From Acutalibacter sp. 1XD8-33 (GTDB taxonomy: Bacteria; Bacillota; Clostridia; Oscillospirales; Acutalibacteraceae): a DNA stretch of 64,000 nucleotides. Position numbers and translations under genes: made by a program. The stretch lies in NCBI RefSeq assembly GCF_003612555.1, contig NZ_RAZF01000011.1, positions 1-64,000 of the forward strand, given 5' to 3'. Shown one piece after another: positions 708 to 63,370 of this stretch (positions are counted from its first letter, which is position 1; the number at the start of each line of letters is the position of its first letter). The notes below the pieces were generated by a model, which saw only the letters and a list, made by a program, of their open reading frames with translations, did not search any database and was not told the DNA's origin.

Positions 708-810
708 TCGTTAATGCGGTTCAAAAGAGGTACACCGCCTCTTTTGAACCAAGCGGCGCAGCCGCCCAGCTTGAAAACCAGTATTTACCGATTTTCAAGC
801 GCGTTTACGA
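708..810. repeat. Cloverleaf-like palindromic element, copy A
   Basis: The 103 bp element has inverted termini (TCGTTAATGCG / CGCGTTTACGA) enclosing three hairpins: GGTTCAAAAGAGG with CCTCTTTTGAACC, GCGGC with GCCGC, and CTTGAAAA with TTTTCAAG. The same plan is found at 16,646, 41,954 and 57,909. The right arm overlaps the end of the neighbouring minus-strand phosphodiesterase gene and encodes its final seven residues and stop codon. Confidence 0.8.
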
Positions 811-1821: not shown

Positions 1822-2100
1822 TTGAGAGTGTTGATGGCCTCTGGCAGGGAGGGGCGTTGCCCCCTCCACCCCCACCACCTTTGAAAAGGTGGACGAAACT
1901 TTTACCCTGGTCAGCATTGGGCGGTCCAGCGGGCCTTACGCTGGCGCGGGTGTGGGGTGAGCGTCTGCCAGTGGCAGACAAGCTGCGAACCGACCGAGCC
2001 GGCAGGCGAGACCGGAGCCCCACGGTCTTGCCGTAAGGCGCAGCAGAGTTCGCGAAGCGAAACTCTCTGCGACTGGAGGCCACACAGTATTACTTTTAAA
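1822..2100. repeat. Composite repeat unit with terminal inverted repeats (unit 1)
   Basis: The unit starts with TTGAGAGTGTTGATGGCC and ends with the inverted counterpart GGCCACACAGTATTACTT. Between them are the CCACCTTTTGAAAAGGTGG-type hairpin followed by the ACGAAACTTTTACCCTGG block, the CGAACCGACCGAGCCGGC block, an ACGGTCTTGCCGTAAG block and a GAGTTCGCGAAGCGAAACTC palindrome. Similar units lie at 7,819, 25,912 and 31,541. No convincing gene is present. Confidence 0.65.
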
Positions 2101-7812: not shown

Positions 7813-8145
7813 AGTTTTGAGAGTAATACTGTGTGGCCCCCGCCCCAAGGGGTGCGGCTTCGGCGCTTGGGGGACTCTGGGTCTCGGCTGGTCTCGACTG
7901 CCGACTCGGTCGGCGACGGGAAATTGCCACTGGCGATTGTCGCCCCCCAAAAAACCCACCACTTTTGAAAAAGTGAACAAAACTTTTTCCCTGGTTAACT
8001 GGGTGAGATAAAGCTAAACAAAGTAAAAGTTTTTGATCCACACTTTTCTCAAAAAGTGTGGTCCAGTCCAGGGTGAGAGTTCGTAAGACGAAGTCTCACG
8101 AACTCTTGTCGCCGAAGGCCATCACATGCTCCAATAAAGTATAAG
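7813..8145. repeat. Composite repeat unit with terminal inverted repeats (unit 2)
   Basis: The left end reads GAGAGTAATACTGTGTGGCC (7819-7838) and the right end GGCCATCACATGCTCC (from 8117), inverted relative to each other. The interior holds the GGAAATTGCCACTGGCGATT module, the CACTTTTGAAAAAGTG hairpin followed by the AAACTTTTTCCCTGGTTA block, and a second hairpin CACTTTTCTCAAAAAGTG. No convincing gene is present between trkA and the dipeptidase gene. Confidence 0.65.
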
Positions 8146-18785: not shown

Positions 18786-18872
18786 GCCGGAGGGTGAGCG
18801 TTCTGCCGGATACTTGGCAAAGCCAAGTATTGCAGACAACGCCGCGAACCGACCGAGCCAGCAGGCGAGACT
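18786..18872. repeat. TGCCGGATACTTGGC repeat module
   Basis: This stretch carries GTGAGCGTTCTGCCGG, ACTTGGCAAAGCCAAGT and AACCGACCGAGCCAGC. The same run occurs near 20,580, 42,750, 55,565 and 58,800. It is preceded by AGTGATACGGAGTGGCC, a diverged unit end. Confidence 0.7.
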
Positions 18873-19841: not shown

Positions 19842-20534
19842 TTTTATGGGCGCGTGAGTGCGCACATTGGCTAATTGCGGAGCACCACGCCCGGCGGGCG
19901 TTTAGGCTTGGTAGCTGCGCCCAGCGCTGGCTTTCTCCGCATCCACCCCGCTCGGGTTCGTCCTTCGGACGAACCGCCGGAGGAAGCGGGCTTTGCCCGT
20001 TTCCTCGCGGCCATTTTGCGGCTCGCCGCAAAATGCGAGCGGGGCACACCGCGCCAAGCAAGTGCGAGGAATAAGCTAGGTTTCGCGGTAGTGTCAAAAA
20101 GATAAACACTCGCATCGCTCGGTTTATCTTTCCGTTTTGCTTCGCAAAACTCGCCGGGCTGGGTGCTGGATACACGGCGCAGGCTGGTTCTGATTTCCAG
20201 GAAACTTTTTTCTCTTACAAAAAGTTTCCTCTTGGCGCTACGCGCCAATTCATCTTCAAAAAATGCGCTTCTCAGGTGTTAAGGTCAAGGGCAAGACCGT
20301 AGAGGCTCTGCCTCCAAACCACCGCGAGCTTTTGAAGAAAGCTAAGACTTCGCAGAGCGAAGTCTGCAAAACTTTTACGTTGGTTAGCTGAGTGCGCTTG
20401 CACCCAGCTTGGTAGAGTTTTGCGTAGCAAAACTCATGACACATGACGAAACTCAGCTGGCTCATTTCTCCATTCTTGGCGTCATGTGCGACGAACACAG
20501 TGAGGAGTGGGTAAAATGTTTCGTAGACTTCGTT
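19842..20534. repeat. Mosaic palindromic repeat cluster
   Basis: The order is: ATGGGCGCGTGAGTGCGC / GATTGCGGAGCACCA block (to about 19,900); a roughly 100 bp block with nested palindromes (CCCCGCTCGGGTTCG, GGTTCGTCC/GGACGAACC, GCGGGCTTTGCCCG, CATTTTGCGG/CCGCAAAATG, ending GAGCGGGG); a TCGCGGTAGTGTCAAAAAGA block; GAGGAAACTTTTT-type arms; and, from 20,275, a roughly 245 bp stretch almost identical to 60,520-60,820. The right end continues into the coding tail of the RluA-like gene. No convincing gene. Confidence 0.75.
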
Positions 20535-21524
20535 CTACGAAGTCTTACCTTTCTCAAAGGTGGCAGGGGTTTGGGGGTGAGCGTCTGCCGGATACTTGGC
20601 AAAGCCAAGTATTGCAGACAACGCTGCGAACCGACCGAGGCGGTAGCCGAGACAACCCCAAGGTCTTGCCCAGGAAAACGCCTGGGCAAGGTCCTCCGGA
20701 AGGGGGGAGTGAAACTCCCGGCGGAGGCCCAGGGCCCTGCACTCCAGCTCCAGGGAACAGCAGTGCAAGGCCTGCCGGGAAACCAGCTGGAGGCCGCCCC
20801 CGTACAGATCGTCCCCGGCCAGGGGATGGCCCAGCCATGCCATGTGGGCCCGGATCTGGTGGGTGCGGCCGGTCTCCAGCCAGAGGGCCAGGAGGGTGTG
20901 GTCCTCCGCCTGGGCCAGGGCCCGCCAGTGGGTGACGGCGGGCTGGCTTTGGGGGCCGGGGCCGCAGACCCGCAGGATCTTGCTGCCCTCCGCCAGCCCG
21001 ATGGGCGCGTCCACCGTGCCGGAGCCGGAGAGAACCCCTTCGCAGACGGCCAGATAGGTTTTCCTGGTCCGTGCCCCCGCCGCGATCCGGTGCTTGGCAA
21101 TGGCCAGCAGTCCGCTGGTGTCCTTGTCCAGGCGGAAGAGGGGCTTGACGGCGCAGCTCTGGCCGGTGCGCCGGTAGTGCCAGGAGACGGCCTGAAGCAG
21201 GCTGTCCCAGTCGTGGCCGGGGGAGGGGTGCACGGGCATCCCTGAAGCCTTGTCAACGATGAGGAAATCCTCGTCCTCATAGACGACGGCCAGAGGCAGG
21301 TTTTCACAAGGGTAGTCCGCCCCCTCCGGGGGCAGGGAAAGGGCAAGGACGTCCCCGGCCCGCAGGTGCTGGCGCACATGGCAGTCCTGGCCGTTCACCC
21401 GAATGCCCCCCGGAAATTTCTGCCCCGCCAGGGCATGGGCGGAGAGCTCCAGATATCCCCGGGCAAAGGCCTTCACCGTGGCCCCCTCCCATTCCGCCGG
21501 AACCACGTAGCGGAGAATCCTCAC
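20535..21524 (-). CDS. RluA-family pseudouridine synthase with repeat-derived tail
   Basis: The protein (329 residues) converts uridines in ribosomal or transfer RNA to pseudouridine. It has an S4-like N-terminal part, the catalytic motif FRLDKDTSG (Asp133) and LETGRTHQIRAHMAWLGHPL, diagnostic of RluA/RluC/RluD. The start is a GTG overlapping the ispA stop by one base. From about residue 291 on, the frame reads through a mosaic repeat (the ACTTGGCAAAGCCAAGT module), so the last 40 or so residues are probably not original. It is the last gene of the nusB-xseA-xseB-ispA group. Target uridine unknown. Confidence 0.85.
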   Translation of the reverse strand: MRILRYVVPAEWEGATVKAFARGYLELSAHALAGQKFPGGIRVNGQDCHVRQHLRAGDVLALSLPPEGADYPCENLPLAVVYEDEDFLIVDKASGMPVHPSPGHDWDSLLQAVSWHYRRTGQSCAVKPLFRLDKDTSGLLAIAKHRIAAGARTRKTYLAVCEGVLSGSGTVDAPIGLAEGSKILRVCGPGPQSQPAVTHWRALAQAEDHTLLALWLETGRTHQIRAHMAWLGHPLAGDDLYGGGLQLVSRQALHCCSLELECRALGLRREFHSPLPEDLAQAFSWARPWGCLGYRLGRFAALSAILGFAKYPADAHPQTPATFEKGKTS

Positions 21525-22390
21525 TAGTTTTCCCGCCCGGCCAGGGAGAGGGCTAGCTCCCGGAGGAAGCCGCTGTCCCCAGGGAAGGCCTCCAGGGCCT
21601 CCACGGCCTGGGCGGTGTAGGAATCCACCAGGGCCTGGGCCCGCTCCACCCCCAGAAGGGTCACGTAGTTCCGCTTGTCCCGGGCGGCATCCATGCCGGT
21701 GTTCTTCCCCAGCTTTTCCGCGCTCCCGGTGAGGTCCAGGATGTCGTCCCGGATTTGGAAAGCCATGCCCACCCCCTGGGCGTACCGTCCGGCGGCAGAA
21801 AGAACGGCCTCGTCCCCTCCGGCGGCGATGCAGCCCATGCGGCAGGCGGCATCGATGAGGGCCACGGTCTTTCCCTGGTCCATGATCTTCAGCAGGTCCA
21901 GGTCCGCCTCCTTGCCTTCGGAGAACAGGTCCACGCACTGGCCCCCCACCATGCCCCGGTATCCGGCCAGCCGGGCCAGAGTTTTCCCGGCTTCGGCCCC
22001 CCGGAGGGCGTCGGGAAAGCTCAGAACGGTCTCAAAGGCCAAGGTGAGCAGGCCGTCCCCGGCCAGCAGGGCCATGGCCTCGCCGTAGACTCTGTGGCAG
22101 GTGGGCCGTCCCCGGCGGAGCTCGTCGTCGTCCATACAGGGCAGGTCGTCGTGGATGAGGGAATAGGTGTGGACCATCTCCACAGCGCAGGCGAAGGGCA
22201 GGGCCTCTCGCCAGTCTCCGCCGCACAGCTGGCAGAAGGCTAGAACCAGCGCCGGACGGATCCGCTTGCCCCCGTCCAGCAGGCTATAGCGCATGGCCTC
22301 CGTGACGGAAGCGGCGGGATCCTGGGGGGCGGGGGCGGGCAGGATCTGCTCCAGGGCCCGCTCCACGGCCTCAAGATAGGCTTTCATCAT
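21524..22390 (-). CDS. ispA: Polyprenyl (farnesyl/geranyl) diphosphate synthase
   Basis: The 288-residue trans-isoprenyl diphosphate synthase condenses isopentenyl diphosphate with allylic diphosphates to make farnesyl-type products. The two Asp-rich motifs are present: DDLPCMDDDELRRGRPT (about residues 80-96) and DDILD (about 218-222), with GGKRIRP near residue 39. Length and the xseB neighbour fit IspA. Translation starts at an ATG with GGAGGAGG six bases upstream, inside the end of xseB (20-base overlap), which indicates coupling. Chain length is inferred, not proven. Confidence 0.93.
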   Translation of the reverse strand: MMKAYLEAVERALEQILPAPAPQDPAASVTEAMRYSLLDGGKRIRPALVLAFCQLCGGDWREALPFACAVEMVHTYSLIHDDLPCMDDDELRRGRPTCHRVYGEAMALLAGDGLLTLAFETVLSFPDALRGAEAGKTLARLAGYRGMVGGQCVDLFSEGKEADLDLLKIMDQGKTVALIDAACRMGCIAAGGDEAVLSAAGRYAQGVGMAFQIRDDILDLTGSAEKLGKNTGMDAARDKRNYVTLLGVERAQALVDSYTAQAVEALEAFPGDSGFLRELALSLAGREN

Positions 22391-22601
22391 GGGGGTCCTC
22401 CTCCGGCCGCAGAGAGGCGGTGAGCTCCCGAACCTTCTGCTCGGCCTTGTTCAGGGTGTTGTAGCACAGGGCGGAGAGCTTCGCGCCCTCCTCAAACAGG
22501 GCCATGGCCTCCTCCAGGGGGGCGTCGCCGCTCTCCAGCCGGGCGACAATCTCCTCCAGCCGGGTCAGGGTGCTTTCAAAGTTCAGCTTTTTCGCGGGCA
22601 T
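22371..22601 (-). CDS. xseB: Exodeoxyribonuclease VII small subunit
   Basis: The 76-residue protein is the small subunit that binds the coiled arm of XseA; the complex degrades single-stranded DNA from both ends. FESTLTRLEEIVARLESGDAP and LEEAMALFEEGAKL are typical of XseB, and the length matches the family. AAAGGAACATCAAA precedes the ATG. It normally follows xseA directly; here a 700-base repeat cluster lies between them. It overlaps ispA by 20 bases. Confidence 0.93.
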   Translation of the reverse strand: MPAKKLNFESTLTRLEEIVARLESGDAPLEEAMALFEEGAKLSALCYNTLNKAEQKVRELTASLRPEEDPHDESLS

Positions 22602-22639
22602 TTTGATGTTCCTTTCTATTGTGGCACGGTTTTGCCGTT

Positions 22640-23320
22640 TGGATTTTTATATGGGGGCTTTCATTGTGCAATAGTCCGGTGGACGGGCGCCAAGGCCGGG
22701 TGGATGTTTCAGCCTAATCTCCGCTGGCCTTTTCCGTGTTCGCTCCGCCCCGCTCGCATTTTGCGGCGAGCCGCAAAATGGCCGTAGGGAAACGGGCAGA
22801 GCCCGTTTCCCCCGGCGGTTCGGCCGAAGGACGAACCCGAGCGGGGCGCCTGAGGCCGAGAATAGTGAGATGAGATGAGCTTCGTCAGTGCGTCAAAAAG
22901 ATAAGCACTCGCGCGGCGAGATGAACTCTCCGCGTCCCCTCTTATAGAGTTTTACTTTGCAAAACTCGGATAGTTAACCGAGCGCAGCGAGTGTTAACCT
23001 ATTATTCACCACCCTGGCAAAAATATGCTTCTCAGGTGTTTAAGGTCAAGGGCAAGACCGTGGAGGCTCTGAGTCTCAGCTGCCGCTTCGGTCGGCGACG
23101 GGAAATCGCCACTGGCGATTTCCCGTCGCCCTCCAAACCACCGCGAGCTTTTGAAGAAGGCTAAGACTTCGCAGAGCGAAGTCTGCAAAACTTTTTACGT
23201 TGGTTAGCTAAGCTAAAAACGTTAATTGTCTGCGACGAACGTAGTGAGGAAGCAGGGTAAAAGTTTCGCCGGCCTTTTCAAAGGCCGCAGGGTGTGGGAC
23301 GGAGTCCCACGACCTTGGGC
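22640..23320. repeat. Mosaic palindromic repeat cluster between xseA and xseB
   Basis: It contains a TATATGGGGGCTTTC-type block, a 100 bp CCCCGCTCGCATTTTGCGG / CCGAGCGGGGC block (22,748-22,852), a GAGTTTTACTTTGCAAAACTC palindrome, the CGAGCGCAGCGAGTGTTAAC block, the GGGAAATCGCCACTGGCGATTTCCC module and the AAGACTTCGCAGAGCGAAGTC hairpin. From about 22,940 to 23,215 it is nearly identical to 60,430-60,690. No gene was found; it interrupts what is normally a continuous operon. Confidence 0.75.
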
Positions 23321-24511
23321 TCACACCAGCTTGGCCTGTCGCCGGCCGGTTTCCACTTGCAAAGTGACCTCCTCCCCGGCGGGGAGCCCGGTCAGGTCCC
23401 GCACGGCTTTGCCCCCGTGGTACACCACAGAGTAGCCCCGGGAGAGCACCTTCAGCGGGCTCATGGCGTCCAGCTTGCCGGAGAGCAGGGCCAGGGTCTG
23501 ACGGCGGGTATTCATCTGCTCCCGGCCCTGGGCCTCCAGCCGGGCGGAGAGCTCCTCCAGCCGGGCCCGGCGGGCCAGGGTGTAGTCTCCCGGACGGTTC
23601 AGGGGGGAGTCCCGCAAAAGCAGGTCCACCCGCTGGCGCAGGTCCTGGACCGTCCCCAGGCCCTTGTCCTGGAAATACCGGTGATAGGCCAGCAGCCGGT
23701 CCAGCTCCGTGTCCCGGTCCGGGGTGCACAGCTCGGCGGCGGCGCTGGGGGTGGGGGCCCGCAAGTCGGCGGCGAAGTCGCAGATGGTGAAATCCGTCTC
23801 GTGGCCCACAGCCGACACCACCGGGATCTCCGATGCCGCCACCGCCCGGGCCAGGGCCTCGTCGTTAAAGGCCCACAGGTCCTCCATGGAGCCGCCCCCC
23901 CGGCCCACGATCATCACGTCGCAGGCCCTTGCCCGGTTCAAGGCCTGCACGGCGGCGGTGATCTGGGCGGAGGCGCTCTCCCCCTGGACCAGCACCGGGC
24001 AGAACACGATCTCCGCCAGAGGCCAGCGCCGGGCCGTGATCTGGAGGATGTCCCGGACAGCCGCGCCGGTGGGGGAGGTCACCACCCCAATTCGCTGGGG
24101 ATAGGGGGGCAGGGGGCGCTTCCGGTCCGGGTCAAAGAGACCTTCGGCGGTAAGCCGGGCCTTCAGCTGCTCGAAGGCCATGGCAAGGGCGCCGATGCCG
24201 TCGGGCTGCATATCCTCCACATAGAGCTGGTACTGGCCCGAGGCCTCGTAGACGGAGACGCGACCCCGGATGATCACCTTCATGCCGTCCGCCGGGCGGA
24301 AGCGCAGGCGGGAGACGGCGGAGGAAAACATCACCGCCCGAATCACCGAGCGGTCATCCTTCAGGGAAAAATACATGTGGCCGGAGCGGTGCTGCCCGGT
24401 AAAATTGGACAGCTCCCCGGTGATCATAATGTCCCCCAGGCGGCCGTCTCCCTCGATCAGGGACTTGAGGAACCGGTTCACCTGGGTTACGGTAAGCAAA
24501 GCCTGGCTCAA
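23321..24511 (-). CDS. xseA: Exodeoxyribonuclease VII large subunit
   Basis: XseA is the catalytic subunit of exonuclease VII. The protein of about 396 residues starts with an OB-fold (LTVTQVNRFLKSLIEGDG... GELSNF), followed by the nuclease domain (IGVVTSPTGAAVRDIL, IVGRGGGSMEDLWAFNDE, VSAVGHETDFTICD) and a helical C-terminal arm. A TTG at 24511 lies eight bases after GAGGTGAT; a GTG at 24520 is inside that site and overlaps the preceding stop codon, so the TTG is preferred. It follows the Kae1-like gene with no gap. Confidence 0.93.
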   Translation of the reverse strand: MSQALLTVTQVNRFLKSLIEGDGRLGDIMITGELSNFTGQHRSGHMYFSLKDDRSVIRAVMFSSAVSRLRFRPADGMKVIIRGRVSVYEASGQYQLYVEDMQPDGIGALAMAFEQLKARLTAEGLFDPDRKRPLPPYPQRIGVVTSPTGAAVRDILQITARRWPLAEIVFCPVLVQGESASAQITAAVQALNRARACDVMIVGRGGGSMEDLWAFNDEALARAVAASEIPVVSAVGHETDFTICDFAADLRAPTPSAAAELCTPDRDTELDRLLAYHRYFQDKGLGTVQDLRQRVDLLLRDSPLNRPGDYTLARRARLEELSARLEAQGREQMNTRRQTLALLSGKLDAMSPLKVLSRGYSVVYHGGKAVRDLTGLPAGEEVTLQVETGRRQAKLV

Positions 24512-24516
24512 GAAAA

Positions 24517-25434
24517 TCACCTCGTTTTTGCTGCAAGAATGGCCGCGCCCGCAGCGTTATCGCTGGAAAATTCCGGCGCGGCGAAATAGGCCCCGAAGGC
24601 CCCGGAGAGCCGTTCCCGGATCAGGAAATTGCCGCAGACCCCGCCGGAAAACACCACGGGCAGGGGGCCCCGCTCCCGGAGCAGCAGACGGCACATGGCC
24701 TCCAGCGCGGCGGCGATGGACTCCAGGCAGTGCCGGGCGGTCTCCTCCGGCGGGCTGCCCGCCCGGATCATGGCCATACACTGGTTTTCAATGCCGGAGA
24801 GGGAGCAGTCAGCCCCCCGTAGCACGGGCTTCACCCGCACGGGCTCCGGCCATCGGAGGGCCAGCTCCTCCAGGGCCGGTCCGCAGGGGAAGGGGAGCCC
24901 CAGGGCCACGCCCACCCGGTCCACGGCCTGCCCGGCTTTCAGGTCCAGGGAGGCGGCGGCGATCTCCACGGCCGGGCCCTCCTCGCCGCCGGGAGAGACC
25001 AGCAGGGCCTCGGTGGTGCCGCCGGAGACATGGAACGCCAGGAATCTCTCCTCCAGAAGGTCCAGCTGCCCGGCGGAATAGAGCGCGGCTGCGATGTGTC
25101 CCTGCTGATGGGAAAACGGGGCCACAGGCACGCTAAGAGCCGCGCCCAGCACCTCCGCGAAGCCCTTCCCGGCCAGGAAGCAGGGCATGTAGGAGTCCTC
25201 CCCCTGCCGGGGGCTCACAGAGACGCCGATGGCCCGAAGCCCCTCCACAGGCAGAAGGCCGCTGAGCAGCCGGGGGAGCTGGCGGGTATGGTGAAAGACC
25301 GCGTCGCTCTGGCGCAGGCCTCGGGCCCCTTTTGGTACGGGCAGGGGGTGCTTCCGGTTCTCCAGGACCTGTTCCCCGTCGTAGACGGCGGCGGAAGTAG
25401 TATAGTTGCTGGTATCAATCCCCAGGGTTTTCAT
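24517..25434 (-). CDS. Kae1/TsaD-like ASKHA protein
   Basis: The 305-residue protein has the ASKHA ATPase fold of TsaD/Kae1, which make threonylcarbamoyl-adenosine in tRNA. Seen are LGIDTSNYTTS (residues 4-14), the HQQGH metal-like motif in PFSHQQGHIAAAL, SGGTTE, and SGGVCGN. It is shorter than true TsaD (about 335-345) and sits between nusB and xseA, away from tsaB/tsaE, so it is probably a paralogue whose role is not established. It ends overlapping the xseA start region, which shows co-transcription. No clear Shine-Dalgarno precedes the ATG. Confidence 0.8.
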   Translation of the reverse strand: MKTLGIDTSNYTTSAAVYDGEQVLENRKHPLPVPKGARGLRQSDAVFHHTRQLPRLLSGLLPVEGLRAIGVSVSPRQGEDSYMPCFLAGKGFAEVLGAALSVPVAPFSHQQGHIAAALYSAGQLDLLEERFLAFHVSGGTTEALLVSPGGEEGPAVEIAAASLDLKAGQAVDRVGVALGLPFPCGPALEELALRWPEPVRVKPVLRGADCSLSGIENQCMAMIRAGSPPEETARHCLESIAAALEAMCRLLLRERGPLPVVFSGGVCGNFLIRERLSGAFGAYFAAPEFSSDNAAGAAILAAKTR

Positions 25435-41100: not shown

Positions 41101-41971
41101 CACCACCCTCTATGCTACCTGGAAGGAATCCCCTGTCACCATCACCGCCACCTGTACCTCCGGCGGGTCCCTGATTACCACCACGGGTCAGTCCAACACC
41201 GTCACAGTGGATAAGGGCCAGGACGTGACCTTCAACGCCACCGCCAACTATGGCTATGAGCTGGTGGACCTGATTGTAGACGGCGAAAGCCTCTATGCCC
41301 TGGAGAGCTATACCTTCCGCTCTGTGATGGAGAACCACACCATTCACGCGGTATTCCAGCGGATCGCCCCAGATGATTATATTACCTGCCCCCGGGACTA
41401 CACCTGTCCCCTGAGCCGGTTCAGCGACCTGAATCCCAGAGAATGGTATCATGACGCGGTCCATTACTGCCTGGATGAGGTAATCATGAACGGCGTCTCC
41501 TCCAACCGCTATGGGCCCAATATGCCCACCAGCCGGGCGATGCTCACCATGGCCCTCTGGCGGGCGGAAGGCCGTCCCGACGCGGTAGGAGGCGGTGCCC
41601 TGACCCGCCCCTATAAGGATGTTCCCTCCACGGAATGGTTCTACCGGTGCATTGTCTGGGCAACCCGCACAGGCGTGGTGAACGGCTACAGCGCCACGGC
41701 TTTTGGCCCCAACGACAATATCACCCGGGAACAGGTGGTCACCATCCTGTGGCGGCACGCGGGCTCCCCTGCCCCCCGGTCCTATAACCTCCCCTTCTAT
41801 GACGACTGGGCCACCAGCAGCTATGCCTGGAACGCTATGTGCTGGGCCTATGAGAACGGCATCATCAAGGGCCGGCCGAACCGCATTCTGGATCCCAGGG
41901 GAAATGCCAAGCGGGTGGAGATCGCGGAGATCATGAAGAATTACCTGCTCAACTATAGTAAACGCACTTAA
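38165..41971 (+). CDS. SLH-anchored surface protein with InlB-type repeats
   Basis: The 1268-residue secreted protein has a signal peptide (MVKKFVSLLLCVILALGA, cleavage near GAA/KNP), then about ten InlB B-type repeats ending in patterns such as GYTFLGWFT ... LYAHW (about residues 80-1060), and three SLH domains (about 1085-1260; SDLNPREWYHDAV, KDVPSTEWFYRCI, YAWNAMCWAYENG) that bind cell-wall polymer. The role is probably adhesion or surface structure. The first third has lower GC than the rest, which suggests a mosaic origin. The last residues (YSKRT) and stop codon lie in a cloverleaf repeat. CGGAGG precedes the ATG, behind a consensus promoter. Confidence 0.88.
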   Translation: MVKKFVSLLLCVILALGALPLSAGAAKNPGDSHTITFHYEDPDDINSRLVLNTWAVKGSDEEISVKFHYNFNRNCSENDSCDSSQSATFPYKKNGAYENPALPTISETLYSDKVFLGWYTNSSFNDRGIKISNDELVNPDITHLYAQYFDKSSLTNSYLIVYNYRNATGTYLEAISSQGTGTSVLLPAPTRSGYRFCGWYDDTLKGATKFEETDANGLSAGEVKQLYARWIPESSKLTAYLPQNSSTLNISVSYNQTTSLQDFWDEVDRQNIQGPNSEIITGWSFVDKDQSAYTDADIVLKRPAASTASRARANSGTILQFLCDNAAYAPLEVHDGKEVPVLSLYPVYGTVSADTVKLTLTGNGGKFTYQGVDKGDNFDINVASGTTFGNALKDVTATNTDSGLILKGWSTSSTGYVPVDLTAPINSSQTIYAVWGTAITVSVNPNGGTYDGSALPKSINIPSGTTFADFKANYLKQELLKPDNSALREFSSWYLRDEMYPNDATKFHILKDNDEFNQDITIHAAWKAVTTPPADEIIVSFDLNYTGAPAGPADIKIGDTLKYGQLPQVTRAGYNFLGWFAEKSGGTEAKTNGSLVKQESHTLYAHWGQMGSINLNPDGGTLADGEPKSVTPVDGKYPELPDPTRAGYTFQGWFTAQKDSGVRVKEGDAVSPADIGMIYAHWKANTYTVAYDLNYTGAPAAPTDKTVTYDQKYGPLAQPDRSGYTFLGWFTQPSGGLEVKAEDTVQITQKQTLFAHWQGGDPVTLELQGGKLPDGVSGRIGVTPGGKYPTLPVPTRTGYTFEGWFTKAEDGSQVESGDSVGEKAPEKLYAHWTARKVTVNFDYNGAPGSRDPRTYNYGAKYTNLPASARWDGHTFLGWFTAATGGTQITKDSTVSVPEGTDETEGLSITLYAHWGFQISYEANGGSGEMESSTAPMDSPFTLPSCTFTPPYGMVFDRWAVGSLKGEHLTAGATHTFNRNTTLYATWKESPVTITATCTSGGSLITTTGQSNTVTVDKGQDVTFNATANYGYELVDLIVDGESLYALESYTFRSVMENHTIHAVFQRIAPDDYITCPRDYTCPLSRFSDLNPREWYHDAVHYCLDEVIMNGVSSNRYGPNMPTSRAMLTMALWRAEGRPDAVGGGALTRPYKDVPSTEWFYRCIVWATRTGVVNGYSATAFGPNDNITREQVVTILWRHAGSPAPRSYNLPFYDDWATSSYAWNAMCWAYENGIIKGRPNRILDPRGNAKRVEIAEIMKNYLLNYSKRT

Positions 41972-42060
41972 AAATCGGTATATACTGATTTTTAAGTTGG
42001 ACTGCTACGCCGCCTAGTTCAAAAGAGGTCAAATACCTCTTTTGAACCGCGTTAACTATG
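41954..42060. repeat. Cloverleaf-like palindromic element, copy C
   Basis: TATAGTAAACGC and GCGTTAACTAT termini enclose CTTAAAAATC / GATTTTTAAG and GTTCAAAAGAGG / CCTCTTTTGAAC hairpins; the central arm is reduced. The first 18 bases are coding for the surface protein. Confidence 0.8.
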
Positions 42061-42129: not shown

Positions 42130-42890
42130 CTTTGGATTTTTTGAATATGGGCGCGTGAGTGCGCGCGCTGGCCGATTGCAGAGCACCAAGTCCCGGCAAG
42201 CGCTGAGGCCCGGCGGCGGCGCACGCCAACAGAACGGGCGCGAAACGGGTAAAAGTTTTGCAGACTTCGCTCTGCGAAGTCTTAGCTTTCTTCAAAAGCT
42301 CGCGGTGGTTTGGAGGGCGACAATCGCCAGTGGCGATTTCCCGTCACCGACCGAAGCGGCAGCTGAGACTCAGAGCCTCCAAGGTCTTGACCTTAAACAC
42401 CTGAGAAGCGCATTTTTTGAAGGTGAATTGGCGCATAGCGCCAAGAGGAAACTTTTTGCAAGAGAAAAAAGTTTCCTGGAAACCGGAAGCACCCAGTGCT
42501 ATATAGCTTTCGTTCGCTTCGCATTTGCGAAGCGAAACAGGGGACCCCCGACGAGGGTCCCCTACGCAAAACGTCCCACCGGGACGTTTATGCTACCCTC
42601 CTGCGTTGTTTTCTCAGGTGTTAAGGGCAAGGGCAAGACCATGGGACTCTGTCCCACACCCTGCGAGGCTTTTGAAAAAGCTCGACCAAAACTTTTACGG
42701 TTGTTAGGTTAGCTTGTCAAAAGCAGTAAAAGTTTGTGGGGTTTGGGGGTGAGCGTTCTGCCGGATACTTGGCAAAGCCAAGTATTGCAGACAACGCTGC
42801 GAACCGACCGAGCCGGGGATGCTCCCCGGTGGGGAGCGTTCTGACCCGACCGAGTCGGCAGACGAGACCAGGCGAAACCGGAGTCCCCAA
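42130..42890. repeat. Mosaic palindromic repeat cluster
   Basis: The order is ATATGGGCGCGTGAGTGCGC block, AAGTCTTAGCTTTC block with GACTTCGCTCTGCGAAGTC, the TCGCCAGTGGCGATTTCCCG module, the ACACCTGAGAAGCGC block, GAGGAAACTTTTTGC with its partner, then from 42,538 the GGGGACCCCCGACGAGGGTC hairpin, AAACGTCCCACCGGGACGTTT hairpin, a CTGTCCCACACCCTGC block, and from 42,748 the ACTTGGCAAAGCCAAGT / CGACCGAGCC module followed by a second GACCGAGTCGGC block. No gene. Confidence 0.75.
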
Positions 42891-51104: not shown

Positions 51105-51345
51105 GTTTTGCCCTCCGGCGGCTCAGGGGCTCCGCCCCTAAGAACCCCGCCACTTTTGAAAAAGTGGACAAAACTTTTGCCCTGGTTAGCTTGGAACGCT
51201 ACAGTTAACAACATTGACCGGTCCAGCTGGTCTTAAGCTGGCGGGGGTGTGGGGCGCGGAGCCCCACGGTCTTGCCGTAGGGGTGAGCGTGTGCCTGTGG
51301 CACACAAGCTGCGAACCGACCGAGCCGGTAGGCGAGACCCGTGAC
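51105..51345. repeat. Mosaic palindromic repeat cluster before proS
   Basis: GGCTCAGGGGCTCCGCCCC hairpin, CACTTTTGAAAAAGTG hairpin with ACAAAACTTTTGCCCTGGTT block, GGGGCGCGGAGCCCC hairpin with the ACGGTCTTGCCGTAG block, and a variant of the GTGAGCG ... CTGCGAACCGACCGAGCC module. No gene. Confidence 0.7.
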
Positions 51346-55489: not shown

Positions 55490-56070
55490 AGGGAAAAAGT
55501 TTTGCAGACTTCGCTCTGCGAAGTCTTAGCTTTCTTCAAAAGCTCGTGGGAGTTTGAGGGGTGAGCGTTCTGCCGGATACTTGGCAAAGCCAAGTATTGC
55601 AGACAATGCTGCAAACCGACCAAAGCGGGGAAGCTCCCCAGTGGGGAGCGTTCTGACCCGACCGAGTCGGCAGACGAGACCAGCTAAGACTCAGAGCCTC
55701 CAAGGTCTTATCTCTTGACCTCAACACCTGAGAAGCGCATTTTGGGTGTGTGAATAATAAGTTAACACTCGCTCTGCTCGGTTAACTATCCGAGTTTTGC
55801 AAAGCAAAACTCTTGCAAGAGGCCCCTTTTTGCAAGAGAAAAAGGGGCCTGGAAACCGGAACCCGCCAGCTTTGTACTGTGTGTTGTTTTTATATGGGCG
55901 CGTGAGTGCGCGCACTGGCTGATTGCGGAGCACAGGGCCAGGCGGGCCTTTCGGCTGATTCCATGCGCACAGAGCTGGCTGAGAGCACATCTAGGGAAAC
56001 CCCCGGCGAGGGGTTCCCTCTGAAAGTCTCCACCGGAGACTTTCATTCACCCTTCCTGCGCAGTTTCCCA
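55490..56070. repeat. Mosaic palindromic repeat cluster
   Basis: AGACTTCGCTCTGCGAAGTC hairpin, ACTTGGCAAAGCCAAGT module, GGGGAAGCTCCCCAGTGGGG arms with the GACCGAGTCGGC block, the ACACCTGAGAAGCGCATTTT block, GTTAACACTCGCTCTGCTCG, GAGTTTTGCAAAGCAAAACTC, an AGAGGCCCCTTTTTG / AAAAAGGGGCCT palindrome, the ATATGGGCGCGTGAGTGCGC block (55,888-55,950), GGGAAACCCCCGGCGAGG and GAAAGTCTCCACCGGAGACTTTC hairpins. No gene. Confidence 0.75.
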
Positions 56071-57908: not shown

Positions 57909-58023
57909 TATAGTAAACGCAGTTCAAAAGAGGTATCCCTCTTTTGAACCAGGCGGCGCAACAACTGCTGTGCCGCCCAGCTTGAAAATCGGTATATACC
58001 GATTTTCAAGTGCGTTTACTATA
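57909..58023. repeat. Cloverleaf-like palindromic element, copy D (best preserved)
   Basis: The 115 bp element has near-perfect termini TATAGTAAACGCA / TGCGTTTACTATA. Inside are three consecutive hairpins: GTTCAAAAGAGG-TATC-CCTCTTTTGAAC, GGCGGC...GCCGCC, and CTTGAAAATCGGTA-TACCGATTTTCAAG. Together with the paired ends they fold on paper into a cloverleaf with a four-way junction. It lies between two converging genes and does not touch their coding parts. Confidence 0.85.
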
Positions 58024-58639: not shown

Positions 58640-59335
58640 ATATTGTGGCTGCCGGCGGCTGGGGGCTCTGAGTCTCACCTGCCGGTTCGGTCGGCGACGG
58701 GAAATCGCCACTGGCGATTGTCGCCCCCCGTCCCCCGCCACTTTTGAAAAAGTGGACAAAACTTTTACCCTGGACAGCATTGACCGGTCCAGCTGTAAAC
58801 TTGGCAACGCCAAGTTTTGCAGACAACGCCACGAACCGACCGAGTCGGCAGACGAGACCAGGCGAGACTCGCGCAGCCCTCAAGGTCTTGCCCTTGACCT
58901 TAAACTCCTCAGAAGCGCAATTTTGAAGGTGAATTGACGCGCAGCGTCAAGAGGAAACGGAGAGTTCATCTCGCCCTGCGAGATGAATCTCTTTTGCAAC
59001 TGAGAAAAAGTTTCCTAGTCTCGGAGTAAACCAGCGGAGAACGTTCGCACCCAGCCCGGCGAGTTTTGCTTTGCAAAACTCATGACGCCTGACGAAGCTC
59101 AGCTATATCATCGCTCCATTCTTCGCGTCAGGCACCCCGCTCGGGTTCGTCCGAAGAACGAACCGCCGGGAGAAACGGGCAGAGCCCGTTTCTCCCGCAG
59201 CCATTTTGCGGCTCGCCGCAAAATGCGAACGGGGCGGACGCGGGAAAGACTAGCTGAGCGCACGAGCGTACCAGCCGGGAGCGCTCCTTGCCAGCTGGAA
59301 TCTGGATGCGCCACCGCTCCATGCGAGCCCCTTAA
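58640..59335. repeat. Mosaic palindromic repeat cluster
   Basis: GGGAAATCGCCACTGGCGATT module, CACTTTTGAAAAAGTG with the ACAAAACTTTTACCCTGG block, ACTTGGCAACGCCAAGT with the CGAACCGACCGAGTCGGC block, AACTCCTCAGAAGCGC, GAGTTCATCTCGC / GCGAGATGAATC, GAGTTTTGCTTTGCAAAACTC, and the 100 bp CCCCGCTCGGGTTCG / AATGCGAACGGGG block (59,140-59,240), then a GAGCGTACCAGCCGGGAGCG block. No gene. Confidence 0.75.
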
Positions 59336-60194: not shown

Positions 60195-60879
60195 TGTTTT
60201 TATGGGGGCCTGCTGGGCGCAATGGCTCGTCCAGATTCCAGCACACCGCGCCTAGTATGTGCGAGGCGGAAGCTGGATTTCGCGGTGTGTCATGAGTTTT
60301 GCTATGCAAAACTCTGCCAAGTCTGGTACGCCCGTGCGCTCAGATGGCGGGTTCCGATTTCCAGGAGACGCTTTTTTTCAGTTGTAAAAGAGTTTCATCT
60401 TGTTCCACAAGATGAACTCTCCGCGTCCCCTCTTAAGAGTTTTGCTTTGCAAAACTCGGATAGTTAACCGAGCGCAGCGAGTGTTAACCTATTATTCACC
60501 ACCCTGGCAAAAATATGCTTCTCAGGTGTTTAAGGTCAAGGGCAAGACCGTGGAGGCTCTGAGTCTCAGCTGCCGCTTCGGTCGGCGACGGGAAATCGCC
60601 ACTGGCGATTGTCGCCCTCCAAACCACCGCGAGCTTTTGAAGAAAGCTAAGACTTCGCAGAGCGAAGTCTGCAAAACTTTTACGTTGGTTAGCTGAGTGC
60701 GCTTGCACCCAGCTTGGTAGAGTTTTGCGTAGCAAAACTCATGACACATGACGAAACTCAGCTGGCTCATTTCTCCATTCTTGGCGTCATGTGCGACGAA
60801 CACAGTGAGGAGTGGGTAAAAGTTTCGTCAACCTTTTCAAAGGTTGCAGGGTGTGGGACAGCGTCCCACGACCTTGACC
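60195..60879. repeat. Mosaic palindromic repeat cluster
   Basis: It contains TTTTTATGGGGGCC block, GAGTTTTGCTATGCAAAACTC, GAGTTTCATCTTGTTCCACAAG, GAGTTTTGCTTTGCAAAACTC, and then a roughly 390 bp run (60,430-60,820) that matches 22,940-23,215 in its first two thirds and 20,310-20,520 in its last third. It therefore joins two other composites end to end. It ends with CAACCTTTTCAAAGGTTG and GTGGGACAGCGTCCCAC hairpins before the mannosidase stop codon. No gene. Confidence 0.75.
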
Positions 60880-62934
60880 TTACTTCGCGGGCCGTGCCCC
60901 CATCTCGAGCACCAGCTCCCCGCCGGAGACGATCTCCTGATGGGTGAGGAAGGGCCGGTCCAGGGGTTTGCCGTTGAGCTCGGCCTTCTGGATATAGCGC
61001 AGGCCGTCGCCAGCGCCCTTGGCGGTCACCTTGAAGGACGCGCCGCTCTCCATCTTCATCTCCATGCTGTCAAAGAGGGGCGTGCCCAGGGCATATTCCG
61101 CCTTGCCGGGGCAGACCGGGTAGAAGCCCATGGCCGAGAACACCAGCCAGCTGGACATGGCCCCGCCGTCCTCGTCGCCGCAGATGCCCGTGGGGGAGTT
61201 GGGGAACCAGATGTCCATCAGGTCCCGCAGCTTCTTCTGGGCCTTCCAGGGCTGGCCGAAGTAATCATAGAGATAGGGGATGTGGAAGGAGGGCTCGTTG
61301 CCCATGGCGAACTGGCCCATCAGGCCCGTGGAGTCCGGGAACTGCCCCAGATAGATGAACTTGCTGGGCTCGTTGTGGAAGCCCTCCCGGAATACCTGGT
61401 CCAGGCGCTCCCCAGCCTTCTCCTTGCCGCCCATCAGCTCCGCCAGACCCTCCGGATCGTGCATCACAGACCAGGTGTAGGTCCAGGTGTTGTTCTCCGT
61501 GGTGTAGTCCCGGCCGCCCATGCCGCCCGCGAACTTGGGGTTGAAGTCCTCCACCCACTGGCCGTCAATGGACTTGGGAGCCATCCAGCCCAGCTCCGGG
61601 TTGTAGAGGCTCTTGTAGCCCTGGGCGCGCTTTCTGAACATCTCGGCGTCCTCGGGCTTGCCAAGCCGCTCGGCAATTTCTGCGGCGCACCAGTCGTCGT
61701 AGCAGTGCTCCAGGGTCACGGCCACGGACTGCCGCCGCTCAAACTCGTGGGCCGCGGGGCAGGTCTCCGCCTCGCCCTTTTTCAGGGCGGGGAAGAAGCC
61801 CTTCTCCCAGTAGCACTCCTCCTCGGCGCCGGCGGGGGCGTTGCAGGCCCAGGGCATCATGGACTGCTCGGTGGCGTTCTTGCGGATGCCCTCGTAGGCG
61901 GTCTCGTAGTCGGCCTCGATGCCCTTTGCCATGGCGTCCGCGAAGAGGGAGGCCGCGTGGAAGCCGATCATCACCGGCAGGTCCCCCTCGAAGCCGGGGA
62001 AGCAGGGCATCAGCCCGCTCTGCTTGTACATCTCCACATAGCTCTGGAGGATGTCCTTGTGGCGGCGCTCGTCCACCAGCAGCTGCAGGGGGTGCATACA
62101 CCGGAAGGTGTCCCAGAGGCCGTCGTTGTTGTAGAAGGTGCCCTCATGGACCTTGCCGTCGAAGCCGCTGAAATACTGGCCGTGCTCGGTGACGTCGGTC
62201 ATCCGCTGGAAGGCCCGGTAGAGGGCGGTGTAGAACACGGTTTTCCGGTCCTCGGTATTGCCCTCCACGATGAATTTGCCCAGCTGGGCGTCCCAGATTT
62301 CCTGGGCCCGGGCCTTGACCTCGTCAAAGCTCTGGCCGCCGGCCTCCAGCTCCAGGCTCTTTTTGGCGCTCTCCAGGGAGATCATGGAGACGGCGCCCCG
62401 CACCTCTGTGAGCTCGGGGGCGCGGAAGATCAGGGCGTCCTCCTCCTGGCCGGTGAGCTCCACGCCCTGGCCCAGCTGGATATAGGCATACTGGCGCAGG
62501 GGCGTGCGGCGGCCCCGGTTGGGCCAGGAGAGGGTAATCTCTACCGTGTTGCCCTCCGCCTTGGCCTCGCCGCCGGGGAAGCTGAGGCGCAGGCAGTCCT
62601 GGCCGGAGAAGCGGTAGAGGTACACGTGCTGGGTGACGGTGGTCTCGGCGGTGATATCGTGCTCCTCCAGCTCCAGGCGCTTGTAGTAGCAGCGGGCGGT
62701 TTCCCGGCTGTGGTCCAGGATATTGTGGAAATCGCCGCCCTTGCCGGGCATGACGTAGGCCGCGCCCAGGGGGAAGCCCAGGACCTGATCGCAGCAGTAG
62801 GAGTCGCCGTTATCGTGGGATACGGGGGTGCTGCGGGCCATGCCGTAGGGGAGCATGACCTCGGGGTTGGTGGAGGTGAGCATGTGGGAGATGGTGCCGA
62901 TGTAGGGATTGACGTAATCGGAAAGGTGTTTCAT
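60880..62934 (-). CDS. Glycoside hydrolase family 92 alpha-mannosidase
   Basis: The 684-residue enzyme belongs to GH92, calcium-dependent exo-alpha-mannosidases acting on N-glycans and mannans. Seen are the N-terminal VNPYIGT ... PYGMARSTP segments, FYTALYRAFQRMTDVTE, GGRDYTTENNTWTYTW and the catalytic motif CGDEDGGAMSSWLVFSAMGF (about residues 590-610). No signal peptide is present and length is slightly below the family norm (700-760), so a cytosolic role after sugar import is suggested. AAGGAG lies before the ATG at 62934; the longer reading goes into repeats. A sugar-binding protein gene lies upstream on the same strand. Confidence 0.9.
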   Translation of the reverse strand: MKHLSDYVNPYIGTISHMLTSTNPEVMLPYGMARSTPVSHDNGDSYCCDQVLGFPLGAAYVMPGKGGDFHNILDHSRETARCYYKRLELEEHDITAETTVTQHVYLYRFSGQDCLRLSFPGGEAKAEGNTVEITLSWPNRGRRTPLRQYAYIQLGQGVELTGQEEDALIFRAPELTEVRGAVSMISLESAKKSLELEAGGQSFDEVKARAQEIWDAQLGKFIVEGNTEDRKTVFYTALYRAFQRMTDVTEHGQYFSGFDGKVHEGTFYNNDGLWDTFRCMHPLQLLVDERRHKDILQSYVEMYKQSGLMPCFPGFEGDLPVMIGFHAASLFADAMAKGIEADYETAYEGIRKNATEQSMMPWACNAPAGAEEECYWEKGFFPALKKGEAETCPAAHEFERRQSVAVTLEHCYDDWCAAEIAERLGKPEDAEMFRKRAQGYKSLYNPELGWMAPKSIDGQWVEDFNPKFAGGMGGRDYTTENNTWTYTWSVMHDPEGLAELMGGKEKAGERLDQVFREGFHNEPSKFIYLGQFPDSTGLMGQFAMGNEPSFHIPYLYDYFGQPWKAQKKLRDLMDIWFPNSPTGICGDEDGGAMSSWLVFSAMGFYPVCPGKAEYALGTPLFDSMEMKMESGASFKVTAKGAGDGLRYIQKAELNGKPLDRPFLTHQEIVSGGELVLEMGARPAK

Positions 62935-62984: not shown

Positions 62985-63370
62985 CCAGGGTAAAAGTTTC
63001 GCCGGCCTTTTCAAAGGCCGCAGGGGTTTGGGGACGGCGTCCCCAAGGTCTTGCCTTTGAACACCTGAGAAAACAACGCAGGAGGGTAGCATAAACGTCC
63101 CGGTGGGACGTTTTGCGTAGGGGACCCTCGTCGGGGGGCGCTGGTCTCCGCTGGAGACCGTCAAGCGCCGACCGAGCCGGCAGGCGAGACCCCCTGTTTC
63201 GCTTTGCGAACTCTCCCACACCACGCAACCTTTGAAAAGGTTGACGAAACTTTTACGGTTGTTCGGTTAGCTCGGCAAACGACATAAAGTGTTCACGACG
63301 AACGAAGTGGGAGTGACGTTCGCGGTCCAGGGGCGTTAGGCCCCTGGTGGGGTTTGGGGCAAAGCCCCAA
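62985..63370. repeat. Mosaic palindromic repeat cluster with nested module
   Basis: GCCGGCCTTTTCAAAGGCCGC and GGGGACGGCGTCCCC hairpins, ACACCTGAGAAAACAACGC block, AAACGTCCCGGTGGGACGTTT hairpin, GGGGACCCTCGTCGGGG arm interrupted by a roughly 55 bp insert (GGTCTCCGCTGGAGACC and GACCGAGCCGGCAGGC), CAACCTTTGAAAAGGTTG, a TTCACGACGAACGAAGTGG block, and GGGGCGTTAGGCCCC. No gene. Confidence 0.75.

Follow-up and report, generated by a model that had tools for sequence, protein, structure and literature searches.

Mosaic intergenic repeats in an Acutalibacter genome as probable composites of small structured units inserted into one another

The window considered here is a stretch of 64,000 nucleotides at the start of contig C6 of the draft genome of Acutalibacter sp. 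1XD8-33 (3.62 Mb, 106 contigs). Its focal composite lies near the end of the stretch (Table 1), and a query with its 396 focal bases gives 71 matches in the genome. Positions 60,410–60,697 are 96.9% identical to 22,919–23,212 over 294 bases, positions 60,616–60,828 are 99.5% identical to 20,311–20,524 over 214 bases, and the two matches overlap by about 80 bases in the shared module E; a weaker match (92%) relates 60,509–60,561 to 20,259–20,310. A fuller copy on contig C17 (327,670–328,059) shows 98% identity across all 396 focal bases, and together with its flanks this block corresponds to 60,361–60,828 at 96.4% identity. A sequence-only reading of the window had reported the two near-identities at about these places and had taken them for related copies, not independent hairpins. 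Both matches were found and bear this out, and a copying process has indeed acted, as a past event.

A scan with 25 seed modules over 460 kb, comprising the window and 20 further stretches, yielded 620 hits and 98 clusters of at least three modules, counts which do not scale to the genome since the 20 stretches were picked for their richness in matches. Eighteen of these clusters fall in the window, in agreement with an earlier figure of about 17 intergenic regions, and the partial order of the modules recurs. That modules occur only at operon boundaries or in disrupted operons is correct for the most part, 564 of the 620 hit midpoints lying outside genes as drawn by a home-made gene caller and 56 inside. 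One cluster (22,744–23,317) parts the gene of the exonuclease VII large subunit (23,321–24,520) from a small downstream ORF which overlaps a polyprenyl synthetase gene and is probably the small subunit, judging by position only. Within this region (window 22371–24520), the repeat-filled gap between the large-subunit gene and the ORF measures 720 bases. Contigs C6 and C12 carry the same repeat at their starts (37–178 in each), that is, the draft breaks inside composites. A separate small element of modules J, J and O, with GTTCAAAAGAGG...CCTCTTTTGAAC and CTTGAAAATCGGTA...TACCGATTTTCAAG, stands apart from the D-type composites.

Table 1. Repeat features discussed in the text (window positions unless a locus is given).
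Feature	Position	Strand	Remarks
Focal composite	60361..60828	+	Modules G, C1, C2, B, D, E, X, C1, Y; common to contig C17 at 96.4%
Second composite copy	20259..20524	+	Without D, C1, C2; empty D site at 20310/20311
Third composite copy	22919..23212	+	D present, X-C1-Y absent
A and H modules of 22.9 kb copy	23231..23317	-	
A and H modules by focal copy	60814..60881	-	Hairpin CAACCTTT-tc-AAAGGTTG and GTGGGAC-agc-GTCCCAC
Focal D	60562..60615	+	54 nt; absent at 20.3 kb; no target-site duplication (model match 60563-60616)
D of 22.9 kb copy	23073..23130	+	Second hairpin is a perfect 17-bp palindrome, 23094-23130
D nested in loop of another D	42815..42868	-	Both halves of outer unit present
D nested in loop of another D	55627..55680	-	Both halves of outer unit present
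D nested in loop of another D	L166:17,138-17,191		Both halves of outer unit present
D nested in loop of another D	L181:9,982-10,035		Both halves of outer unit present
D unit	58672..58725	+	
D unit	63137..63190	-	
D unit	42316..42369	-	
D unit	7891..7944	+	After left half of another D
D unit	1956..2012	-	56-57 nt subtype
D unit	51282..51338	-	
D unit	58803..58858	-	After left half of another D; weaker match
D unit	18793..18871	-	21-nt hairpin in second loop; weaker match
21-nt perfect hairpin	60437..60457	.	GAGTTTTGC-ttt-GCAAAACTC; module C1
21-nt perfect hairpin	60650..60670	.	AGACTTCGC-aga-GCGAAGTCT; in module E
21-nt perfect hairpin	60720..60740	.	GAGTTTTGC-gta-GCAAAACTC; between X and Y
21-nt perfect hairpin	20525..20545	.	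AGACTTCGT-tct-ACGAAGTCT; inserted in module A of 20.3 kb copy
J, J, O element	718-803		
J, J, O element	41963-42048		
J, J, O element	57922-58014		
J, J, O element	L172:10066-10158		

Compared side by side, the focal, C17, 22.9 kb and 20.3 kb copies differ by discrete units. Among these four, unit D is missing from the 20.3 kb copy only (which also lacks C1 and C2) and X-C1-Y from the 22.9 kb copy only, and a 21-nt hairpin in the A module is carried by the C17 and 20.3 kb copies but neither by the A module beside the focal copy (60,814–60,881) nor by that of the 22.9 kb copy. At the empty D site of the 20.3 kb copy, GAGGCTCTG runs directly into CCTCCAAACC at the junction 20,310/20,311; in a longer reading, AAGACCGTAGAGGCTCTG is followed there by CCTCCAAACCACCGCGAGC, and the focal copy reads AAGACCGTGGAGGCTCTG, then the 54 nt of D, then CCTCCAAACCACCGCGAGC. 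Relative to the 20.3 kb copy the focal one gains exactly 54 nt (60,562–60,615) with no target-site duplication, and once D is removed the flanks of the two are 96.7% identical over 60 joined bases. The strong match to the 20.3 kb copy begins only at 60,616, with the weaker one before it, because that composite lacks D. The four copies are better read as states of one composite, set apart by the presence or absence of D, of X-C1-Y and of the hairpin in A, and the earlier proposal that one cluster joins two others would not be needed.

The short form of D measures 54 nt and aligns gap-free in 43 copies, drawn from this and other genomes; in some other genera D is mostly 63–73 nt long and has one additional hairpin. 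Its conserved unpaired bases are GTCTC, a TGCC loop, TCGGTC and an ACY loop, stem sequence being free as long as it pairs, and each base of GTCTC, TGCC and TCGGTC is 87–100% conserved among the covariance-model matches of the own 460 kb. The consensus fold adds the pairs G1-C21, C3-G19 and U4-G18, and the first half of D is therefore an imperfect hairpin. The alignment (A2) holds 124 rows, 44 of them of 54 nt, of which 43 were used, L054 being left out as it opened a gap. Its rows were chosen by the exact pattern GTCTC..CTG[CT]CG..TCGGTCGG plus a hairpin of at least 5 bp. By this selection the pattern bases are conserved, and the third helix is 100% paired, partly by construction; the pairing of the first-helix variable bases and of the second helix is not built in. 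Across the 43 copies, 94.3% of cells pair in the given structure (71.9% in shuffles), 161 cells are changed on both sides (49.8 in shuffles), and the covariation score of 0.595 (0.164 in shuffles) is reached by none of 500 shuffles; sliding the partner strand cuts pairing to 30–51%. The number of pairs with change on both sides (11, as high in 62 of 500 shuffles) and of further pair types (28, as high in 49 of 500) does not stand out. Independently of how copies were selected, the two variable bases before CTGCCG are complementary to the two behind it in 146 of the 163 D copies (shuffle mean 66.7, maximum 80; 1000 shuffles).

Covarying stems, together with a focal composite that folds at low energy (z −6.3), speak for a reading in which the units are functional RNAs under selection, such as terminators, processing sites or leaders. 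The second hairpin of D offers another source of covariation: in the focal D one arm is bulged (GGCGACGGGAAATCGCC-ACT-GGCGATTGTCGCC), and in the 22.9 kb D the other arm is lengthened to match (GGCGACGGGAAATCGCC-ACT-GGCGATTTCCCGTCGCC), which makes a perfect 17-bp palindrome (23,094–23,130). Such arm correction is expected from quasipalindrome template switching, according to the available text of PMC7202029, and the palindrome looks like an example of it, so that covariation in D need not mean a selected RNA. With the home-made gene calls, gaps of at least 60 bases contain modules in similar shares whether convergent (19 of 35), tandem (76 of 148) or divergent (18 of 35), and D in tandem gaps lies 14 times on the same strand and 16 times on the opposite one, without orientation bias, which fits insertion wherever it is tolerated and not a terminator; a terminator or leader element was rejected on these grounds. 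A known RNA family was likewise rejected, as the repeats have no Rfam match: at the gathering score there are 0 matches in the window, 18 D-bearing loci gave only a tRNA, and 60,200–60,900 gave nothing credible at E up to 5. With neither orientation nor gap type nor Rfam on its side, and with template switching as another route to covariation, the functional-RNA reading is very improbable.

Insertion of D is well supported, and that D inserts as a unit can be held with high confidence. The empty-site test used the 56 of 82 model hits that were full length and scored at least 46 bits, leaving out 26 weaker or partial ones. An empty-site paralogue exists within the own 460 kb for 48 of the 56, compared with 6, 11, 8, 10, 9 and 11 for control excisions shifted by −160, −110, −70, 70, 110 and 160 bases, respectively, although the 48 filled/empty pairs are not independent events because the flanks of D are themselves repeats. 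The net gain in the own genome is 52–54 nt, with junctions that are not perfectly uniform, and no target-site duplication was seen at 20,310/60,562, in the parA-like gene described below or in the displayed empty-site pairs. D also occurs inside D, at the TG/CC loop point, in four cases in which both halves of the outer unit are kept (Table 1) and whose outer units belong to two subtypes; in two further cases (window 7,891 and 58,858) the left half alone is found. Once D is taken out, its flanks can pair over 6 bp or more in 17 of the 34 own copies (200 shuffles averaging 5.7 and reaching 12 at most) and in 24 of 77 copies of other species (average 6.6, maximum 15); in the other 17 and 53, respectively, they fall below 6 bp. 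As about half or fewer of the flanks have such stems, yet more than in shuffles, hairpin loops are preferred but not required. In such loops D sits directly before a run of C. Overall, a C follows D in 97% of the 34 own copies and in 83% of 81 others; to the left of D no strong motif was found (at most 0.68 bits per position).

A datable insertion within a gene is seen in another genome of the same order (G132), where D lies in frame within a parA-like gene, so named from its sequence by eye (...VDADTQG-CGSPVETSQAFACEAPTEPTGET-LTTCLGW...; L241, G132:C1, 2684–3178). The gene is uninterrupted in a genome of the same genus (G205), where it reads VDADPQGDLTTCLGW, and likewise in seven other aligned homologues. 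Compared with G205, the G132 copy shows a net gain of 66 nt and no duplication, the 70-nt D unit apparently having taken the place of about 4 nt. Further downstream the G132 frame stops prematurely for a separate reason, and the gene may be non-working; the uninterrupted parA had no match in plasmid and phage collections.

These insertions bear on the alternative that every mosaic stems from homologous recombination and gene conversion between old repeats, no unit having moved alone. Blocks of several hundred bases are 96–98% alike at distant loci, the roughly 80 bases of module E shared by the two reported matches are a possible crossover place, and whole composites may well have been duplicated in this way. 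As an account of all mosaics it is nevertheless unlikely, leaving unexplained the clean presence or absence of 52–54 nt at the same point, the D units within D loops, and the D in a parA-like gene whose relatives lack it.

Next to D, the clusters contain small perfect hairpins. In the 460 kb there are 120 with a stem of 9 bp and a loop of 3 nt, compared with 3 in the control, which was one mononucleotide shuffle, while 9-bp stems with loops of 2 and 4 nt number 13 and 2. The stems of these 21-nt hairpins fall into few families and their loops vary freely. A 21-nt hairpin at the foot of module A yields module F and also occurs at the corresponding place in module E, and another lies within the second-hairpin loop of a D (L163:9,078–9,155); nesting is thus not limited to D.

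The excess of perfect 9-3-9 hairpins would suit an enzyme-free process in which replication template switching at hairpins copies pieces into the loops of other hairpins, as would the quasipalindrome-type correction at 23,094–23,130 and the few bases by which D junctions differ. Against such a process, the unpaired bases of D are 87–100% conserved among the own-genome model hits and D is found across several families of the order, which points to the recognition of a particular sequence and shape, and swapping between hairpins within one cluster does not account for the D in the parA-like gene. Template switching as the origin of the mosaics is therefore quite improbable.

At least 149 strong D matches (E ≤1.4e-7) are present in the own genome, a lower bound since 150 candidates were scored of 2547 from a first look; all 150 match. 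The exact pattern for the 5′ half of D, with 19 fixed bases, was found in at least 111 stretches of a genome collection in which about 2 are expected by chance. Among the matches listed, most come from Ruminococcaceae, Oscillospiraceae, Acutalibacter and other Clostridia, a few from Lachnospiraceae and one from a record labelled Alistipes. A strict D model finds D in 18 of 147 genomes of the order, across several families, and in 6 of 398 of the phylum, the own genome being counted in both. Outside the own genome, the focal DNA itself has matches in 12 of 39 relatives, each of the same genus. Among 2.9 million viral contigs, only 8 stretches contain the exact D pattern, and spread by phages was set aside. 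Assembly error, which the sequence-only reading had set against itself, does not account for the repeats as a class, as D recurs in many separately assembled genomes.

On balance, a dedicated trans-acting enzyme probably moves D. The agents suggested earlier, a REP-associated transposase or a reverse transcriptase, are not supported. The only intact Y1 transposase gene of the own genome (contig C9) belongs to NCBIfam IS200/IS605 (144.5 bits), scores 38.7 bits with the RAYT model, below its cut-off of 80, and has no D within its 1.5 kb flanks; among 25 Y1 loci of the own genome and relatives, only one has a D nearby, 1.2 kb from a weak Y1 fragment. Four RVT_1 matches of the own genome have no D in the flanks examined. 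Of 11 other D-bearing genomes, 8 lack PF01797 and 6 lack RVT_1, and three that are 98–99% complete (G086, G128 and G039) have neither. D is possibly a fossil in some genomes, so that the absence of an enzyme lowers but does not exclude a role for Y1 or RVT_1 proteins. As to an autonomous parent with D ends, no transposase was recognised, with ORFs judged by eye, at 19 of 120 other-species pattern copies without the second hairpin or in 14 stretches around closely spaced D copies in relatives. D itself has internal hairpins, not terminal inverted repeats of 15–30 bp.

A Y1 HUH transposase of the RAYT or IS200/IS605 type, which would make D a REP-like element with an ordinary mover, would be in keeping with an imperfect hairpin with mismatches and a bulge following conserved bases, with the lack of duplication and with the loop sites. 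Hairpin, loop sites and clean insertion recall the single-strand chemistry described for TnpAREP in the available text of PMC8266576. Such a mover is nonetheless rather unlikely, given the RAYT score of the intact Y1 (38.7 against 80 bits), the single weak fragment 1.2 kb from a D among 25 Y1 loci, the 8 of 11 other D-bearing genomes without PF01797 and the absence of any strong motif left of D (no position above 0.68 bits).

The mosaics are best explained, at a probability of roughly 70%, as composites of small structured units which were inserted into one another and then copied as blocks. Small foldable units, above all D, would have entered the loops of other hairpins by clean insertion. 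A trans-acting enzyme would recognise the folded D strand and move D, in the manner of Y1 transposases acting on REPs, yet would not be a Y1 or RVT_1 protein carried today by every D-bearing genome. Perfect arms with free loops would probably be kept in part by quasipalindrome template switching, and whole composites would afterwards have been duplicated or homogenised (focal and C17, 96%). A more tentative proposal, held at somewhat below even odds, makes D the founding example of a hitherto undescribed superfamily of mobile DNA in Clostridia that is defined by its structure: an element of two or three hairpins, its stems kept for their shape, which enters hairpin loops, including its own, without duplication, is moved by neither a Y1 protein nor a reverse transcriptase, and has built the mosaics through nested rounds with 21-nt hairpins.

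D works like REP or MITE families, being small, foldable, multicopy, extragenic and non-autonomous, although it lacks the target-site duplication of a MITE. The ends of IS200/IS605 elements and the elements derived from them have subterminal hairpins and make no target-site duplication. On both counts they are a candidate for an element that works like D; in contrast to them, D has no strong left-flank target, and most of the tested D-bearing genomes lack PF01797. According to the available text of a survey of tagged REPs, GTAG REPs, BIMEs and REPINs with their RAYT are, like D, short palindromic, multicopy, mostly intergenic and noncoding, form mosaic composites and insert without duplication (PMC3733652). 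They differ in their GTAG tag, which D lacks, having GTCTC as conserved 5′ bases, and in being single hairpins of 20–40 nt as described there, whereas D has two or three hairpins in about 54–73 nt; moreover, the intact Y1 of the own genome is no RAYT above the cut-off, and the host belongs to the Clostridia. As far as its main text was available, the survey contains none of the strings "Clostridi," "Firmicutes," "Ruminococc" and "Faecalibacterium" (PMC3733652). CGTC-tagged REPs, which include Rickettsia RPE and Neisseria dRS3, seem from the same text to be without a dedicated transposase, and RPEs, like D in the parA-like gene of G132, are found in frame within genes (PMC3733652). Read as a tag, however, the 5′ end of D is GTCTC and not CGTC, and D has two or three hairpins and targets hairpin loops, its own included. 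The pneumococcal BOX elements are, by description only, the nearest modular composite: in the available text of PMC3049150 they gain and lose modules as the composites do here, but there it is the tandem number of boxB that varies, and here different units are nested. No D-like element in Clostridia was found in the literature searched, which took in few subscription papers, nor does that literature contain any of four 16-base strings taken from the D core.

Palindromic repeats without a recognised mover are a long-standing problem, of which the CGTC-tagged REPs are another case, and the filled and empty sites, the gene pair from one genus, the precise unit and the covariance model make it testable which gene moves D and whether a folded single strand is its substrate. 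Loop insertion would explain how mosaic repeats grow inward with their outer stems kept, and nested repeats account in part for the intergenic breaks in drafts of such genomes. In one genome from another order of the class (G538:C9, 96918–97202), four D matches form two adjacent pairs, the arrangement being repeated. In one rumen MAG (L059, L069, L070, L109, L115 and L125), D at contig edges is preceded by a shared string, TATAACAAGCGTCGATGTCCCCCGA, which together with D is perhaps a larger multi-copy element there.
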